A stretch of 64,000 bases of DNA from Actinobacteria bacterium HGW-Actinobacteria-4 (GTDB lineage Bacteria; Actinomycetota; Actinomycetes; Actinomycetales; Demequinaceae). The notes under the pieces were generated by a model, which ran no database searches, was not told the origin of the DNA, and saw only the letters and a program-made list of their open reading frames with translations. A program made the translations under genes and the position numbers. Location of the stretch: positions 178,887 to 242,886 of the forward strand of contig PHEW01000002.1 in NCBI GenBank assembly GCA_002841315.1, read 5' to 3'. Within the stretch, counting starts at the first letter, position 1. Each line of letters starts with the position of its first letter. Below, one piece after another: positions 19,619 to 27,164 of the stretch.

Positions 19619-19695
19619 GGATCAGGGTTTCGCGGCAGGAGAAATCCGCCGCAGGAATGATTCCGAATGTCAGTGGCTGCACGTACGCTCTTCCC

Positions 19696-20673
19696 ATGTC
19701 CTCAGAGAACGCAGTCGAGGCTCACGGCCTCGTCAAGAACTTCAAAGAAACCAAAGCACTGCGCGGGGTCGACTTCGCGGTACCGCGCGGCACAGTCCTA
19801 GGCGTACTTGGGCCCAACGGTGCCGGCAAGACCACAGCAGTGCGCATCCTTGCCACTTTGCTGAGGCCGGATGCTGGCCACGCGATGGTCGCGGGTTTCG
19901 ACGTCGCAAAGCACCCCAGTGAAGTCCGTAAGCGCGTAGGACTTACCGGCCAGTACGCGTCGATTGACGAGGAACTGACAGGGCGCGAGAACCTCATCAT
20001 GATCGGCTCACTGCTCAATATGACCGGGACCAACGCGAAGGCACGCGCGAAGGAACTCCTGGAGTGGTTCGATCTCACCGAGGCCGCTGACCGCATGGCC
20101 AAGACGTACTCCGGAGGCATGCGACGGCGCCTCGACCTCGCCGCCTCGCTGACCGGACACCCGGAGATCGTGTTCCTCGACGAGCCCACCACGGGACTTG
20201 ACCCCGCTAAGCGTGAGGACATGTGGGACGTGGTCCGGGACATCGTGGCGCGCGGCACGTCAGTGTTGCTCACCACCCAGTACCTCGAAGAGGCTGACGC
20301 CCTTGCGGATGACATCGTGGTGATCAACCATGGTGAGGTCATCGCTCACGACACTGCCGAGAACCTCAAACGTGTCGTGGGATCGCAAACGCTCCGCGTG
20401 CGGCCCTCCGACCCTGCCGACGCTGCCGCAGTGTCGGTAATTTTGAGTGAAGTCTCGGCGGGAGCCGCTGTGGACCAGCCCCGCAAGGGCGAGCTCGCGG
20501 TGCCAGTGGTTGGCGACAAAGCACTGACCTCGGTTGTCAAGAAGCTCGCCACGCAGAAGATCTCCGTCACTGAGCTTTCCTTGATGTTGCCCAGTCTTGA
20601 CGAGGTGTTCTTCAACCTCACAGGCGAACGCCAGAAGCCCGAACTCACCCCGGAAGAGGAGCTGTCCGCATGA
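19696..20673 (+). CDS. DrrA-like ABC exporter ATP-binding protein
   Basis: Walker A GPNGAGKTT, signature YSGGMRRRLDLAASL, FLDEPTTGLDP. Confidence 0.9.
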   Translation: MSSENAVEAHGLVKNFKETKALRGVDFAVPRGTVLGVLGPNGAGKTTAVRILATLLRPDAGHAMVAGFDVAKHPSEVRKRVGLTGQYASIDEELTGRENLIMIGSLLNMTGTNAKARAKELLEWFDLTEAADRMAKTYSGGMRRRLDLAASLTGHPEIVFLDEPTTGLDPAKREDMWDVVRDIVARGTSVLLTTQYLEEADALADDIVVINHGEVIAHDTAENLKRVVGSQTLRVRPSDPADAAAVSVILSEVSAGAAVDQPRKGELAVPVVGDKALTSVVKKLATQKISVTELSLMLPSLDEVFFNLTGERQKPELTPEEELSA

Positions 20674-21479
20674 GCGCCACAGCGGTCACTCACGACCTTG
20701 CCGCCGTCAAGCACGGCCCGTTCGACGTCATTCGCCACTCGTGGGTCCTCGCCAAGCGCTCACTCGTCAAGACGTGGCGCACGCCCGAAGGGCTCATTGA
20801 CGTCACGCTTTCGCCCATCATGTTCACCTTGTTGTTCACCTTCATCTTTGGCGGGGCGATTGCCAATAGCCCAGGCCAGTACCTCGTGTTCCTCCTTCCC
20901 GGCATCATCGGGCAGAACATCGCGTTTGCGTCGGTTGGGATCGGCATCCAGCTCAATGCGGACATGGAGAAGGGCATCTTTGACCGCTTCCGGGCTTTGC
21001 CGATCTCGCGCATAGCTCCATTGCTGGGTGCTGCCCTAGGCGACATCGTGCGCTACGTGTTGCTGTTCGGCATCATGCTCGCCACTGGATACGCGCTCGG
21101 TTACCGCATCACGACCACGCCAGTTCATGTGCTTGGGGCGCTGCTGTTGATCATTGTGTTCGCGTTGTCGCTCGCGTGGGCGCCGATGCTTGTAGGCCTG
21201 TTGGCACGCTCGCAGCGCGCGGTTCAGGGCATCGTGTTCATGACGTTGTTCCCGTTGACGTTCGCATCGAATGCGTTTGTCCCCACCGAGACGATGCCCG
21301 CATGGTTAGCCTCGTTCGCGGAGGCCAACCCGCTCTCGCACCTCATCAATGCGATTCGCGCACTCCTGACTGAAACGGGTCCGTGGCAGGGACCGGTCGT
21401 TGCCACGTTGATCTGGAGTGCCGTGTTCGTCGTGATCTTCGCGCCCTTGGCGATCCGCACCTACAACCGAAAGTCGTAG
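20670..21479 (+). CDS. DrrB-like ABC-2 type permease
   Basis: Six-TM ABC-2 permease pattern, ATGA overlap with ATPase gene. Confidence 0.88.
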   Translation: MSATAVTHDLAAVKHGPFDVIRHSWVLAKRSLVKTWRTPEGLIDVTLSPIMFTLLFTFIFGGAIANSPGQYLVFLLPGIIGQNIAFASVGIGIQLNADMEKGIFDRFRALPISRIAPLLGAALGDIVRYVLLFGIMLATGYALGYRITTTPVHVLGALLLIIVFALSLAWAPMLVGLLARSQRAVQGIVFMTLFPLTFASNAFVPTETMPAWLASFAEANPLSHLINAIRALLTETGPWQGPVVATLIWSAVFVVIFAPLAIRTYNRKS

Positions 21480-21537: not shown

Positions 21538-22311
21538 CTACCGCTGCAGCGAGTCGAGCAGCTCCGTCGCGTACATGTGGGAGGCCGGCAAGGACTCGAT
21601 CCACACTCGCGGAGGCTGACGCATGAGGTTACCGACGCGCATCGCAAGCGCGCGGTCGGAGATGTGATCACGAAGATGCGCGATGCCAGTGCCGAGACTC
21701 TGGCCCCGCTCAACAAGCACGGCGTACAGTCCGTCGCCCATGCGCGCCATCGGGTGGCCTTCGCCGTAGGCGCCCTTGAGGGCCTGGCCGACGGCGGCGT
21801 TGCGTGCCATCCGTTGCCACGGGTCGTTCTCGGCGACAGTCACATCAATCATGACCAACGCGTGTGTGTCGGTGACGGACTTGCCGTGACGTTGCGACGC
21901 CCCGTAGACCTCAGCGAGACGCTGAGTGAGGTACTCGGTGGTACCCAAACCGGACTCGGCGTCGGTCATTGACGGAGCGTTGGGGGCTGATGTCGAGCCT
22001 TCGGTCCAGCCCTCGCACAAAGCCCGGATCGAGCGAATTGGGGCTGACTCGAAGCCTGCGGCGCGGAAGAGAACCGCCATATCGTCGATGGCTTCCGTGA
22101 TGCCGACCCCAGCGGCGGACCGTGCTTGCCCCAAGCGGAATGCGGCGGGGGCGGTATCCAAACGCGCCTCAAGGGCCTCGACCAGCGCCTCGGCGGCTGG
22201 GGTGTACCAGTCTCCTGGCCGCAACCAGACCGTGTCGATACTCGCGGTCTCCCAGGTTCGAAGAAGAGCAGGATCTGTAGTGGCTGTTGGCACGTTTACA
22301 TCGCTCGTCAT
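21538..22311 (-). CDS. Hypothetical protein with degenerate GGDEF-like C-terminal domain
   Basis: ESGLGTTEYLTQRLAEVYGASQRHG...ALVMIDV...PMARMGDGLYAVLVERG aligns by eye with DxLTGLxNR...RxGGDEF but catalytic residues replaced. Confidence 0.5.
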   Translation of the reverse strand: MTSDVNVPTATTDPALLRTWETASIDTVWLRPGDWYTPAAEALVEALEARLDTAPAAFRLGQARSAAGVGITEAIDDMAVLFRAAGFESAPIRSIRALCEGWTEGSTSAPNAPSMTDAESGLGTTEYLTQRLAEVYGASQRHGKSVTDTHALVMIDVTVAENDPWQRMARNAAVGQALKGAYGEGHPMARMGDGLYAVLVERGQSLGTGIAHLRDHISDRALAMRVGNLMRQPPRVWIESLPASHMYATELLDSLQR

Positions 22312-22481
22312 ACGCAATGAGACGCACCGCAAGGTAGGTTATGACGCGAGTACGTCAACGTTTCGCGAAGGGTCTCGCCTCGCAGTGTGACGAATCCGGC
22401 ATCGGCGTCCTTGCGCGCTAGCCGTCAACACGCGACGATAGAGGGACCAACGATCTTGTCCTGGGAAGTGACAGACGACAT

Positions 22482-25457
22482 ATGAGTTCAGATGCCATCT
22501 CGCTGTGGACAGAAACATCCAGCGACCCGGAGCTGATCGCGGGCGTGCGCGCCGGTGACACAGCGGCATTTGGCGTGCTCTATGAGCGCCACGTCGATGC
22601 AGCGCGCAAGGTCGCCGCGATGTACACCAACACGGCCGCAGACATCGATGACGTCGTCTCCGAATCCTTCTCTCGGGTGCTCCGTGCACTGCAGCGAGGT
22701 GACGGTCCGGATCTGGCATTCCGTGCTTACCTGTTCACTATCGTGCGCCGCACGGGCATGGACATCATTAACAAGGGGATCCGCACCAAACCGCGCGATG
22801 ACATGGGCGAATACGAGTCCAACATGGGCTACGGAGCGTCCTCAGATGAGCCTGCCATTGAGGGTTTCGAGCATGGCATGGTCGCCGATGCCTTCAAGTC
22901 ACTTCCCGAACGCTGGCAGGCCGTGCTGTGGTACACCGAGGTGGAGAAGAAGAGCCCTCGCGAGATCGCGCCTTTGTTGGGCCTGAGCGCCAACGGCGTG
23001 GCGGCTCTGTCATATCGCGCACGCGAAGCCCTTCGGCAGGCATACCTCCAGCAACACCTCAACGCTGCAGACACCGTCAGTTGCCTCGAAGCCAACGCTC
23101 AACTGGGAGCCTACGTACGCGGAGGCCTCAATAAGCGAGAGCAGTCTCAGGTAGGCAGCCACGTCGAAACCTGCGAGCGCTGTGCTGCTCTGGTGGCTGA
23201 ACTTGAAGACGTCAACCGCGGGATGCGCGGAATCATCGCACCACTCGTCTTGGGTGTCGCCGGGATGGCAGCGCTCGAGGGCGGGCTTCCGATCGGTGGT
23301 GCCTTTGGTCCCGGAGTGGCAGAGGGTGCCGGGGCCGCCGGTTCGAGCACGGGCGCAGGCGCCGGAACCAGTGTTACTACCGGAGCGAGCGCAGGCGGAT
23401 CCGTCGCCGCTGGTGGCATTGCGACTGGGTCGGCCGCAGCGGGCGGGACCACCGCCGGAGGAGCCACCGTTGCTGGCGCCTCTGCGGCAGGAGGGCTAGG
23501 TGCGGGTGGTCTCGCCACTGGTTCCGGCGCGGCCGCGGGAGGATTCGCTGCCGGCGGATCAGTCGCCGGACTGGTGTCCGGCTTCGCAGGCATTGCGCTA
23601 CCCGCCGTCGCTGTAGTCGCGATCGTCGCCCTCGCGGTCAACGCGGCCGGCGCTCTAGGACTCATTGGCGACAGCGCTGACGCTGGCCAAAGCGATGAGG
23701 TTGCGGCGATTGAAGCAAAGGCCTTTGAATCGGGCAAGAAGGCCGAAGGTCCCACGAACGATCCTGGAGCGGAGCCGGGCCCAGCGCCTGAGCTTCCTGT
23801 CCTTCCTGGTGCTACCCCACCACCGCCACCTTCGCCGGGAGACAACTCCAGCACGCCCGCAACGGGCGCAGGCGGCGGCTCGAACACTGGGGCCGGTAGT
23901 GGAACCGGAACCGGTGGTTCCACCGCGCCCCCCGGTTCAACTACCCCCATTCCCGGTCCCACGACGCCTCCTGTTGACCCGACTGTGCCCCCCACGGACC
24001 CGGATGACACCCCCCCGCCACCACCGCCTACCTTCGCTCTCTTGAGCATCGGCCAGGCACCTCTCGACTATCTCGAGATTCTCAGGAACTCGCCGGTCAT
24101 GAGCATGACTGTGACCAACAAGGGTGACGGCGTCGCCGACGACGTCACTGCTGCCATCACGGTGCCTCAAGGCCTCGAGTTCTCCGCACCCAGCGGTGGC
24201 GGAGCTCCTTTCGCCGTGATCCAGGCTGCTCGAATTGGCGCGTATCTCCAATTCGCCACCACCGGCACCTTCGATGCGGGTGGCTGGACCTGTGAACTGG
24301 AGAACGAGGCGACTGTCGCGGTCTGCTCGCTCCCCGATCTCGCGGCCGGTGCCACGACCACCCTGAGTCTGGGCCTCGATGTGACGACGCAGGGCGCCCT
24401 CGCGGATGACGCGGTGACTCACTTCTCCGTTACCTACGGCGACATCACCGAGTCATACTCCGTGCGCACCGGGCTCCAGGATGTTCAAGAGGAACTTGAC
24501 CTGCGATACGCGGCATCGGGCCAGGTGGCCGCCACTCAGGTTGGCGCACCGCTGATGTCGTGCGACCTCGCCTTGGGCGACTGCAGAAACGTCATGGCCT
24601 TCGCTGGAAGTGCTACTCAGAACTTGTACAACAACAACTACTGGTCGATGATCCCGCTCAATGAGGCTGGCGGCGAGGCCAACTCGGCCACCACCAACCT
24701 CACCTTGCCTGCAGGCGCTCAGGTGCTCTACGCGTCGCTCGAGTGGTCGGCGAACGCAGGCGCCACGGACGTGTTTGACGGTCCGCTCACCACGGCGAGA
24801 ATCAAGGCACCCGGGCAGAGCTCGTACATCGACATCGCCGCTGACGGCCCCGCAGCGCTCTCCACTGATGGCGGCGGATCACGCCAGTACTACCAATCAC
24901 AGGTCGATATCACGGACCTCGTTCAGCAGTTCGGTGCTGGCCAATGGTCGGTGGCGGATATCGCCCTGAGCGCGACACGCCAGGACCCCGACCCCAGCTA
25001 CTACGGCGGCTTCGCGATCACCGTGATCTACTCGCACGCATCGCTTCCCGACTCTCGTGTGGCGCTCTTTGACGGCACCGACTGGGTCAAGACCGGCGAC
25101 AGCACGAGCTTCACCTTCGTCACTGATGCCGCCGCGGACGTCACGGTTGGCTGGGTGGCTTGGGAAGGCGACCGTGGCCTCGCGGGAGATCGAGTGGACA
25201 TCAATGGCGACAACGTGGTGCCGCTGCGCTGGAACCCAGGCGGGAACTGGCCTCAGGCGTCAACTCCCACGGGAGACTCCGGCAATGCCGCGGATTCGAC
25301 CGCCTTTGGCTCCAAGTACGCCAACTCCCTTGGGGTTGACGCGAAGCCGTTCCGCACCGTGACTCTCGCTGCTGGTACCCACGTGCTCACCGCGGGAACC
25401 TCGACCGATCAGTACTTGATCGGTGCGCTCACGGTAACGATCGCCTACAACGACTAG
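22482..25457 (+). CDS. ECF-type sigma-70 factor fused to ZAS/zf-HC2 anti-sigma zinc finger, Gly/Ala-rich linker, TM segment, Pro-rich linker and large predicted extracellular region
   Basis: Sigma-2/sigma-4 sequence (FGVLYERHVDAARKVAAMYTNTAADIDDVVSESFSRVLRAL; LPERWQAVLWYTEVEKKSPREIAPLLGLSANGVAALSYRAREALRQAY), ZAS HVETCERCAAL, TM VSGFAGIALPAVAVVAIVALAVNAAGALGLIG, PTTPPVDPTVPPTDPDDTPPPPPP linker, Ig/DUF11-like beta-rich C-terminus. Confidence 0.88.
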   Translation: MSSDAISLWTETSSDPELIAGVRAGDTAAFGVLYERHVDAARKVAAMYTNTAADIDDVVSESFSRVLRALQRGDGPDLAFRAYLFTIVRRTGMDIINKGIRTKPRDDMGEYESNMGYGASSDEPAIEGFEHGMVADAFKSLPERWQAVLWYTEVEKKSPREIAPLLGLSANGVAALSYRAREALRQAYLQQHLNAADTVSCLEANAQLGAYVRGGLNKREQSQVGSHVETCERCAALVAELEDVNRGMRGIIAPLVLGVAGMAALEGGLPIGGAFGPGVAEGAGAAGSSTGAGAGTSVTTGASAGGSVAAGGIATGSAAAGGTTAGGATVAGASAAGGLGAGGLATGSGAAAGGFAAGGSVAGLVSGFAGIALPAVAVVAIVALAVNAAGALGLIGDSADAGQSDEVAAIEAKAFESGKKAEGPTNDPGAEPGPAPELPVLPGATPPPPPSPGDNSSTPATGAGGGSNTGAGSGTGTGGSTAPPGSTTPIPGPTTPPVDPTVPPTDPDDTPPPPPPTFALLSIGQAPLDYLEILRNSPVMSMTVTNKGDGVADDVTAAITVPQGLEFSAPSGGGAPFAVIQAARIGAYLQFATTGTFDAGGWTCELENEATVAVCSLPDLAAGATTTLSLGLDVTTQGALADDAVTHFSVTYGDITESYSVRTGLQDVQEELDLRYAASGQVAATQVGAPLMSCDLALGDCRNVMAFAGSATQNLYNNNYWSMIPLNEAGGEANSATTNLTLPAGAQVLYASLEWSANAGATDVFDGPLTTARIKAPGQSSYIDIAADGPAALSTDGGGSRQYYQSQVDITDLVQQFGAGQWSVADIALSATRQDPDPSYYGGFAITVIYSHASLPDSRVALFDGTDWVKTGDSTSFTFVTDAAADVTVGWVAWEGDRGLAGDRVDINGDNVVPLRWNPGGNWPQASTPTGDSGNAADSTAFGSKYANSLGVDAKPFRTVTLAAGTHVLTAGTSTDQYLIGALTVTIAYND
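23280..23590 (+). repeat. Low-complexity Gly/Ala/Ser-rich coding tract inside the sigma fusion protein
   Basis: Translation GAGAAGSSTGAGAGTSVTTGASAGGSVAAGGIATGSAAAGGTTAGGATVAGASAAGG... Confidence 0.8.
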
Positions 25458-25530: not shown

Positions 25531-26151
25531 CTACTCTCGGTTTCCGGCTGGGTCCCAGGGCAGGTCGAGTTGTCGTGCCGTGCGCTCAGCAATCTCGAGT
25601 CCGTGCAACCTGCGCACCACGTGTAGTGCCATGTGAAGTCCCGACGTCAGGCCGCCACTGGTGATGACGGGCCCGTTGTCTACCCACCGCGCTGCGCTCG
25701 ACGCTGAAGCCACGGCTCCTTGCTCCGCCAGAAGTTCGACGTCTTCCCAGTGCGTGGTCGCGGGAAGGCCATCGAGAACGCCAGCGTCGCTCAAAAGGAA
25801 TGCCCCGGTACACACCGACGTCACCAATGTCGATCCCGCCGCCAACGCACGAACAGCCGCCATGATCTGGGCGTCACCTCGAGCGTCATCGAGGGCAATG
25901 AGGCCTGGAATCACCACCACGTCAAGTCGCCCAACATCGGCCACCGGCACTGTTCCGGTGATCGTCATGCCGCCGTAGGCGACGGCGTCTGCTCCGTCAG
26001 GAGAGATCAACACCACGTCGTATATAGGCGGCCCGCCATCTCGCTCAACCAACCGTGACGCGGTCAGGAATACCTCGTAGGGCCCGCCCGCGTCGATCAG
26101 GTCGAACTGATCGAACAGCAAGATGCCTACCCGGGTAGCGCGATCGCTCAC
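25531..26151 (-). CDS. DJ-1/PfpI (class I GATase-like) family protein
   Basis: RVGILLFDQFDLIDAGGPYEVF, LVTSVCTGAFLLSDAGVLDGLPATTHW nucleophile-elbow Cys motif. Confidence 0.85.
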   Translation of the reverse strand: MSDRATRVGILLFDQFDLIDAGGPYEVFLTASRLVERDGGPPIYDVVLISPDGADAVAYGGMTITGTVPVADVGRLDVVVIPGLIALDDARGDAQIMAAVRALAAGSTLVTSVCTGAFLLSDAGVLDGLPATTHWEDVELLAEQGAVASASSAARWVDNGPVITSGGLTSGLHMALHVVRRLHGLEIAERTARQLDLPWDPAGNRE

Positions 26152-26177
26152 GACGCTCCCTCCACTGCGCCGGGGCC

Positions 26178-27164
26178 CTACTTCTTGGTGGCCTGCGCGT
26201 TGACTTCGTATGAGGTGTTCGTTGCCTCGAAGAAGTTCACGAGCTGCAAGGTGTCGTTTGCCGTCGCCATCCACTTCGCGGGGTTGGAGACGTTGTAGTG
26301 AGGATCGAAGCCCAGTTCCTCGAGACGACGGTCCGCCAGGTACTTGACGTACTGGTTGACGTAGTCCGAGTTAAGTCCCAGGATTCCCGTGGGGAGCAGG
26401 TCGCGGTTGTAGTGCTCCTCCATCTCGACAGCGCCGATGATCATCTGGCGGATCTCTTCTGCAAACTCTGGGTCCTGCAGGTCCTCGTTTTCGTCAAGCA
26501 CCGTGAGGATGAGGTTGATGCCGAACTGAAGGTGCAGCGACTCGTCGCGAATCACCCAGTCCATGAGCGACCCGAAGTTGCGTAGTAGGTTGCGCTGGCG
26601 GAAACTCAAGGCGACCATGAAGCCGCTGTAGAACCAGATGCCCTCAAGGATGATGTTGTAGGCGACCAGGTTGCGGACAAAGTCCTTCTTGCCCTCGGTG
26701 GTCTTGATATCAAGGGTCTCTTCCGTCATTCGCTTGATGAATCTGACCTCGAACTCCTCTTTCGCTGCCATCGACGGCACGTCGACGTGGGAGTTGTAGG
26801 CGGCCTCACGGTCCAGCGGGAAGGTCTCCAGCACGTACTCGAAGGACATGCAGTGGTTGGCTTCTTCCCACATCTGCTTTGCCAAGTAGAGGTGGCATTC
26901 TGGAGCGTTGATGTAGGGGTAGACACCGAACGCGAGCGCCTTGTTGACCAGCAACTCGTTGGGGTTGAAGTAGGACATCAAGAAGGTGATGGCGTGCTTT
27001 TCTTCGTCCGTCATCTTCTTGAAGTCGGCGAGGTCCTCGCCTAACTGGATCTCGTTGGGGAACCAGGTGTTGGCAACGGCCTGGTCGTAAAGTTCCATTG
27101 CCCACGGGTAGGTCACGGGCTTGAGAAGCAGTCCGTCTTGAATTCCGGTGCCAAGAATGGCCAT
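26178..27164 (-). CDS. nrdB: Class I ribonucleotide reductase beta subunit
   Basis: MAILGTGIQDGLLLKPVTYPWAMELYDQAVANTWFPNEIQL; diiron ligand motifs EANHCMSFEYV and DESLHLQFG. Confidence 0.94.
   Translation of the reverse strand: MAILGTGIQDGLLLKPVTYPWAMELYDQAVANTWFPNEIQLGEDLADFKKMTDEEKHAITFLMSYFNPNELLVNKALAFGVYPYINAPECHLYLAKQMWEEANHCMSFEYVLETFPLDREAAYNSHVDVPSMAAKEEFEVRFIKRMTEETLDIKTTEGKKDFVRNLVAYNIILEGIWFYSGFMVALSFRQRNLLRNFGSLMDWVIRDESLHLQFGINLILTVLDENEDLQDPEFAEEIRQMIIGAVEMEEHYNRDLLPTGILGLNSDYVNQYVKYLADRRLEELGFDPHYNVSNPAKWMATANDTLQLVNFFEATNTSYEVNAQATKK

Follow-up and report, generated by a model that had tools for sequence, protein, structure and literature searches.

Background

ECF sigma factors that carry their own zinc-finger anti-sigma (ZAS) domain and a transmembrane (TM) segment on the same chain are a published class, represented by ECF48, ECF52 and ECF53 (PMC8999054, PMC5826349). 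SCO4117 of Streptomyces coelicolor, an ECF52 member, joins in one chain an ECF sigma factor, a zinc finger, a TM helix, a Pro-rich extension and an extracytoplasmic module (PMC5826349). It positively controls differentiation genes and has a published putative motif, CSGYN-17bp-SRHA (PMC5826349); in the S. coelicolor SCO4117 mutant, differentiation genes such as ssgB are lowered. For the actinobacterial groups ECF48 and ECF53, C-terminal ZAS-TM fusions are predicted and release by proteolysis is assumed (PMC8999054); we compared these groups with our protein by description. Thus far, most knowledge of fused ECF receptors comes from descriptions of groups and from one Streptomyces gene with an unsettled promoter (PMC5826349).

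Two other systems share single features with the protein described here. IutY of Pseudomonas putida (ECF243) has sigma factor and membrane anti-sigma on one chain and is activated by regulated proteolysis (PMC8999054). However, it belongs to Gram-negative iron-siderophore cell-surface signalling and, as described, does not combine a zinc finger with a large DUF11/DUF3344-like sensor. In SigH-RshA of Mycobacterium tuberculosis a ZAS domain holds the sigma factor, but in two separate proteins rather than one chain.

Here we analysed a fused ECF sigma factor in a 64,000-nucleotide stretch of an actinobacterial genome (the window), which named relatives place in the genus Demequina. A sequence-only reading had put it forward as an under-described system. 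That holds for its ectodomain type, its partner gene orf264, its promoter and its target set, none of which was found in the open-licence literature searched, but not for the architecture, which is that of the ECF48/52/53 class. As far as found, what is new beside the known fusions is the sensor, the conserved partner gene, the probable promoter code and the target genes, including bldC.

Domain architecture and conservation of the fusion

The protein is encoded by one ORF of 991 aa at 22482-25457 on the + strand, as are all its domains, with an ATG start and no interruption; the opposite strand, in register, is closed by stops. Pfam matched sigma region 2 at aa 33-94 (22578-22763; PF04542, Sigma70_r2, 1.3e-11) and sigma region 4 at aa 134-184 (22881-23033; PF08281, Sigma70_r4_2, 2.2e-5, just under gathering). 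There is no sigma3, as in ECF factors, and the NCBIfam ECF model TIGR02937 gave 64.8 bits against a cut-off of 42.9. Next comes the zinc finger at aa 201-235 (23082-23186; PF13490, zf-HC2, 4.9e-6, above gathering), whose ligands C201, H227, C231 and C234 are invariant in an alignment of 26 Demequina proteins. By the zf-HC2 match and these conserved Cys/His ligands it is assigned to the ZAS (class I) anti-sigma domains, with predicted zinc binding. Thus, both the single sigma2/sigma4-ZAS-ectodomain frame and the ZAS finger after sigma4, as read from the letters, were confirmed by the ORF and the profile matches.

A long helix, seen in alignment and model, follows at aa 232-266 (23175-23279) and ends in a strongly conserved hydrophobic R-x-I-I-A-P-L segment. 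It leads into a Gly/Ala/Ser spacer of variable length at aa 267-364 (23280-23573), and then into the main TM helix at aa 367-394 (23580-23663), which hydropathy indicates in all relatives and the model gives as a low-confidence helix at 375-391. Beyond a Pro/Thr/Gly-rich linker at aa 424-516 (23751-24029), the ectodomain consists of a DUF11-like Ig-type domain (24042-24485), with the invariant Cys pair C604/C615, and a DUF3344-like C-terminal beta domain (24486-25454), with the invariant pair C694/C701. These four and the three cysteine ligands of the zinc finger are the only cysteines of the protein, seven in total.

The zinc finger, TM helix and Pro-rich extension after the sigma domains are all features of ECF52. 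The ECF52 module is NPCBM, whereas that of our protein is DUF11/DUF3344-like; Pfam found NPCBM in Streptomyces-type relatives and none in our protein, which on this feature should not be filed under ECF52.

The ectodomain gene is present in all 44 Demequina genomes, and 31 of the 35 named Demequina loci carry sigma-ZAS and ectodomain in one in-frame ORF. Two of the four exceptions are cut by contig ends. The other two, from D. sediminis and D. litorisediminis, have several frameshifts in otherwise conserved sequence; assembly error is likely there, since these genomes score 92% and 50% complete. A frameshift or stop between sigma factor and ectodomain in homologues had been named as what would overturn the fusion; the 31 intact loci uphold it and rule out a frameshift or assembly artefact as its source. 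Identity across Demequina is 70-87% in sigma-ZAS and 36-52% in the ectodomain.

The locus is syntenic in Demequina, in the order hspR (with or without an ABC pair), orf264(-), sigma(+), a DJ-1-like gene(-) and usually then nrdB-nrdA(-). The DJ-1/PfpI-family gene (25531-26274, -), between the sigma gene and nrdB, is kept in nearly all Demequina loci, and the ABC drug-type transporter pair (19657-21479, +), between hspR and orf264, holds this position in only some species. Another genus of the family has a 250-aa paralogue with sigma and ZAS only (L202, G044:C7, 5331-6095); it lacks a TM segment, which shows that the membrane part is not always retained.

Membrane topology

The sequence-only reading spoke of a TM helix, and the span at 367-394 stood; the singular did not, since there is a second hydrophobic stretch at about 250-266. 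On the Hessa scale this first segment scores 3.7-6.2 in nearly all Demequina proteins, whereas the main span scores -0.4 to 3.1. In the full AlphaFold model aa 232-266 form one helix from the ZAS domain into the conserved hydrophobic segment, in a model whose region 253-495 is of low confidence (membrane-proximal pLDDT about 24-65). We regard this segment as probably anti-sigma helix 4, or membrane-proximal, and not clearly a span.

The topology that we favour has one span and the C-terminus outside. One span is preferred because the first segment is weakly hydrophobic on the Hessa scale. The C-terminus is placed outside on three grounds: its domain type recurs in family f26 proteins that appear to have signal peptides, it is also found in one protein whose tail resembles LPxTG, and in relatives its position is taken by NPCBM or ricin-B lectin. 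Both stretches could instead cross the membrane as a hairpin, with the Gly/Ala loop as the sole outside part and the DUF11/DUF3344-like domain in the cytoplasm. The conservation of the segment at 250-266 agrees with such a hairpin, as does, by the positive-inside rule, a spacer free of Lys and Arg in 31 of 31 relatives. However, the marginal Hessa values of the first segment in Demequina, the four invariant ectodomain cysteines, and the secreted homologues and lectin modules at the same position make it highly improbable.

The ectodomain and its exchange among relatives

The ectodomain, of about 470 aa, was modelled by AlphaFold almost entirely as beta strands (pLDDT 91), in agreement with its first description as beta-rich. 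The DUF11/Ig-like character proposed for it was upheld for the Ig-type fold and in orthologues, where 15 of 23 ectodomains gave a DUF11 match (E up to 0.1); the query's own DUF11 match is sub-threshold (0.021, Pfam). DUF3344 (PF11824) matched 3 of the 23 Demequina ectodomains (best 6e-5); the query itself lies below the gathering score, and one relative (L127) above it (30.9 vs 27.2). The number of ectodomain cysteines is even in 31/31 aligned proteins, and the two conserved pairs probably form two disulfides that would stiffen the domain.

Neither PDB sequence search nor Foldseek returned a solved structure close to the ectodomain. Foldseek matched only generic tandem Ig-like adhesins and integrins, at TM-scores of at most 0.25, and we therefore inferred no ligand. 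The label adhesin-like is thus apt in a generic sense only.

Sigma-ZAS-TM fusions are spread through the class, in other actinobacterial families besides that of Demequina. Families f24, f28 and f35 share the DUF11/DUF3344-like ectodomain, f5 and f9 have Ig-like versions, and f26 (Streptomyces-like) has NPCBM and ricin-B versions. As judged from their domains, the relatives keep sigma-ZAS-TM, while the predicted sensor is exchanged for NPCBM, ricin-B lectin or Ig-like modules. A tree built on the sigma domains set all 38 fused proteins apart (91/85) from 29 further members of the sigma family, drawn from two genomes; in it the Demequina and NPCBM proteins, the latter of the SCO4117 type, fell in different sub-branches of the same broad clade. 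A single origin of the fused set is suggested, but not proven, because its members were collected for their similarity to the query, a procedure biased towards one clade.

We also observed three large secreted DUF11-repeat-like proteins of about 1600 to over 5000 aa (L130, L132 and L136), in which the query's C-terminal domain type lies close to the N-terminus. One of them, L132, has an LPxTG-like anchor at its end, read by eye.

Partner gene and promoter-like element

Divergent from the sigma gene lies orf264 (21538-22311, -), with a predicted leaderless start at ATG 22311. It adjoins the fused sigma gene throughout Demequina and in f1, f9, f24, f28, f34, f35 and f47, that is, in at least seven families, and is divergent wherever the layout was checked. 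No Pfam or NCBIfam model matched it. Its C-terminal half shows a D-P-L-T-G-L motif in relatives, and the top seven matches of its profile against the PDB were GGDEF-domain proteins, including FimX, at a weak E of 0.002-0.15. The GGDEF/GGEEF active-site motif is missing. These matches suggest a GGDEF-like fold, and we describe orf264 as a putative degenerate GGDEF-like protein.

Six bases before the orf264 start codon is a predicted ECF-type promoter, GCGTCAT-N17-GTCTCA (22318-22347, -). Of the Demequina sequences examined, all except L173 have GCGTCAT upstream of orf264; a spacer of 17 bases then leads to (G/C)TCTCA, or to a sequence close to it, and the start codon typically stands six or seven bases on. 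A first promoter reading, with GAAA as -35 and GCGTCAT as -10, was dropped once the (G/C)TCTCA block was seen exactly 17 bases on and six bases before the leaderless ATG. An A-rich block upstream of GCGTCAT may be an UP-like element. The string GCGTCAT was not found together with sigma factors in the open-licence papers searched.

Outside Demequina, counting 11 or 12 of 12 positions as a match, the element was present at 27 of 68 sigma/orf264 loci, against 0.55 for the permuted consensus. These 27 matches came with the 17-base spacer; other spacings gave at most 6. In f5 the element lies 46-82 bases before the sigma gene itself, at six loci, which looks like autoregulation. SCO4117-type loci differ: neither orf264 at the NPCBM-type loci inspected nor the element at f26 (Streptomyces-type NPCBM) loci was found, and the element is also absent from f27 loci. 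We used only locus-anchored matches because a class-wide scan with a shorter promoter pattern was noisy, with matches in 178/296 genomes, many of them apparently coding.

The link between the fused sigma factor and GCGTCAT-N17-STCTC is inferred from genome context, and the element could be read by another sigma factor, or be another type of regulatory site, and merely control neighbours of the fused gene. A Demequina genome has about 20 other sigma-family matches from which such a factor could come. In Demequina, moreover, the fused sigma gene itself is without the element and hence not simply autoregulated. However, the element tracks the fused sigma locus through eight families and in two arrangements, and stands directly before the sigma gene in f5; we hold a different reader to be rather unlikely.

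Proposed mechanism

Recognition by the fused sigma factor is part of the reading that we consider probable: a self-inhibited, membrane-anchored ECF sigma receptor that a signal would release to drive GCGTCAT-N17-(G/C)TCTC promoters. The ZAS domain on the same chain would clamp the sigma domains at the inner membrane face, while the DUF11/DUF3344-like ectodomain, on its Pro-rich stalk, would sense a wall- or surface-associated cue. The signal would free the sigma domains, most likely through cleavage near the membrane, and these would direct RNA polymerase to the promoters. In Demequina the putative targets are orf264, bldC, an LRV-repeat protein, a NIT-HAMP-HATPase sensor and small secreted proteins; EAL and PilT genes are rare among them. 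A one-polypeptide transmembrane transducer had been proposed from the sequence; as a prediction it is supported by the conserved fusion, the ZAS ligands, the four invariant ectodomain cysteines and the homologous secreted domains.

IutY and SCO4117 make release by proteolysis plausible by analogy (PMC8999054, PMC5826349). The same receptor might also respond by a change in conformation or at the zinc finger that leaves the sigma factor uncleaved and tethered to the membrane. Some ECF factors with C-terminal extensions do act by conformational change (PMC8999054), and no intramembrane protease is evident among the identified neighbours. Nevertheless, where there is evidence on how membrane-bound ECF fusions work, as for IutY and, in part, SCO4117, it points to proteolysis, and we consider activation without cleavage unlikely.

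Putative target genes in Demequina

A 13-position form of the element occurs in 44/44 Demequina genomes, with one to six sites per genome and none for the reversed control. We inspected 97 sites, most of those found, and 94 matched about ten recurring gene families. The LRV-repeat protein accounted for 24 sites, orf264 for 18, bldC for 17 and the NIT-HAMP-HATPase sensor for 14; smaller sets were a small secreted protein (7), a Tat-type surface protein (5) and LRV116 (4), and the rarest were EAL (2), a 397-aa protein (L306, 2) and a repeat protein (1). The two L306 matches may be spurious. For one of them the offset of -514 is impossible, and it is probably the PilT site of L294 (Pfam/NCBIfam identity).

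The distance from element to start codon is consistent in the larger target sets, and BldC scored above its NCBIfam cut-off (103 vs 77 bits). The genome of the window has four sites, before orf264, bldC, an LRV protein and a secreted List_Bact_rpt/DUF11 protein. Since the representatives of the target families were themselves drawn from the element sites, the strength of the assignment lies in its recurrence across species. Sites from other families gave no match to the Demequina target proteins except weak low-complexity ones, so the wider regulon is shown for Demequina only.

BldC is a developmental regulator studied in Streptomyces (PMC6428758), and here a putative surface sensor would be tied to its gene in bacteria without a Streptomyces-like life cycle. 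The effect of the SCO4117 mutant is compatible with a shared role of the Demequina protein, but is no proof of it. We see an even chance that the whole represents a previously unrecognised actinobacterial module, in which a one-piece ECF receptor with interchangeable sensors, a degenerate GGDEF-like partner and its own promoter code would link a surface signal to bldC and to other regulatory, cell-surface and c-di-GMP-type genes. With its exact 17-base spacer, short target list and conserved partner gene, the pathway can be tested directly.

Finally, at one locus of family f35 (L433, G073:C88) the element stands before an SsgA/SsgB-like gene, recognised by eye only.
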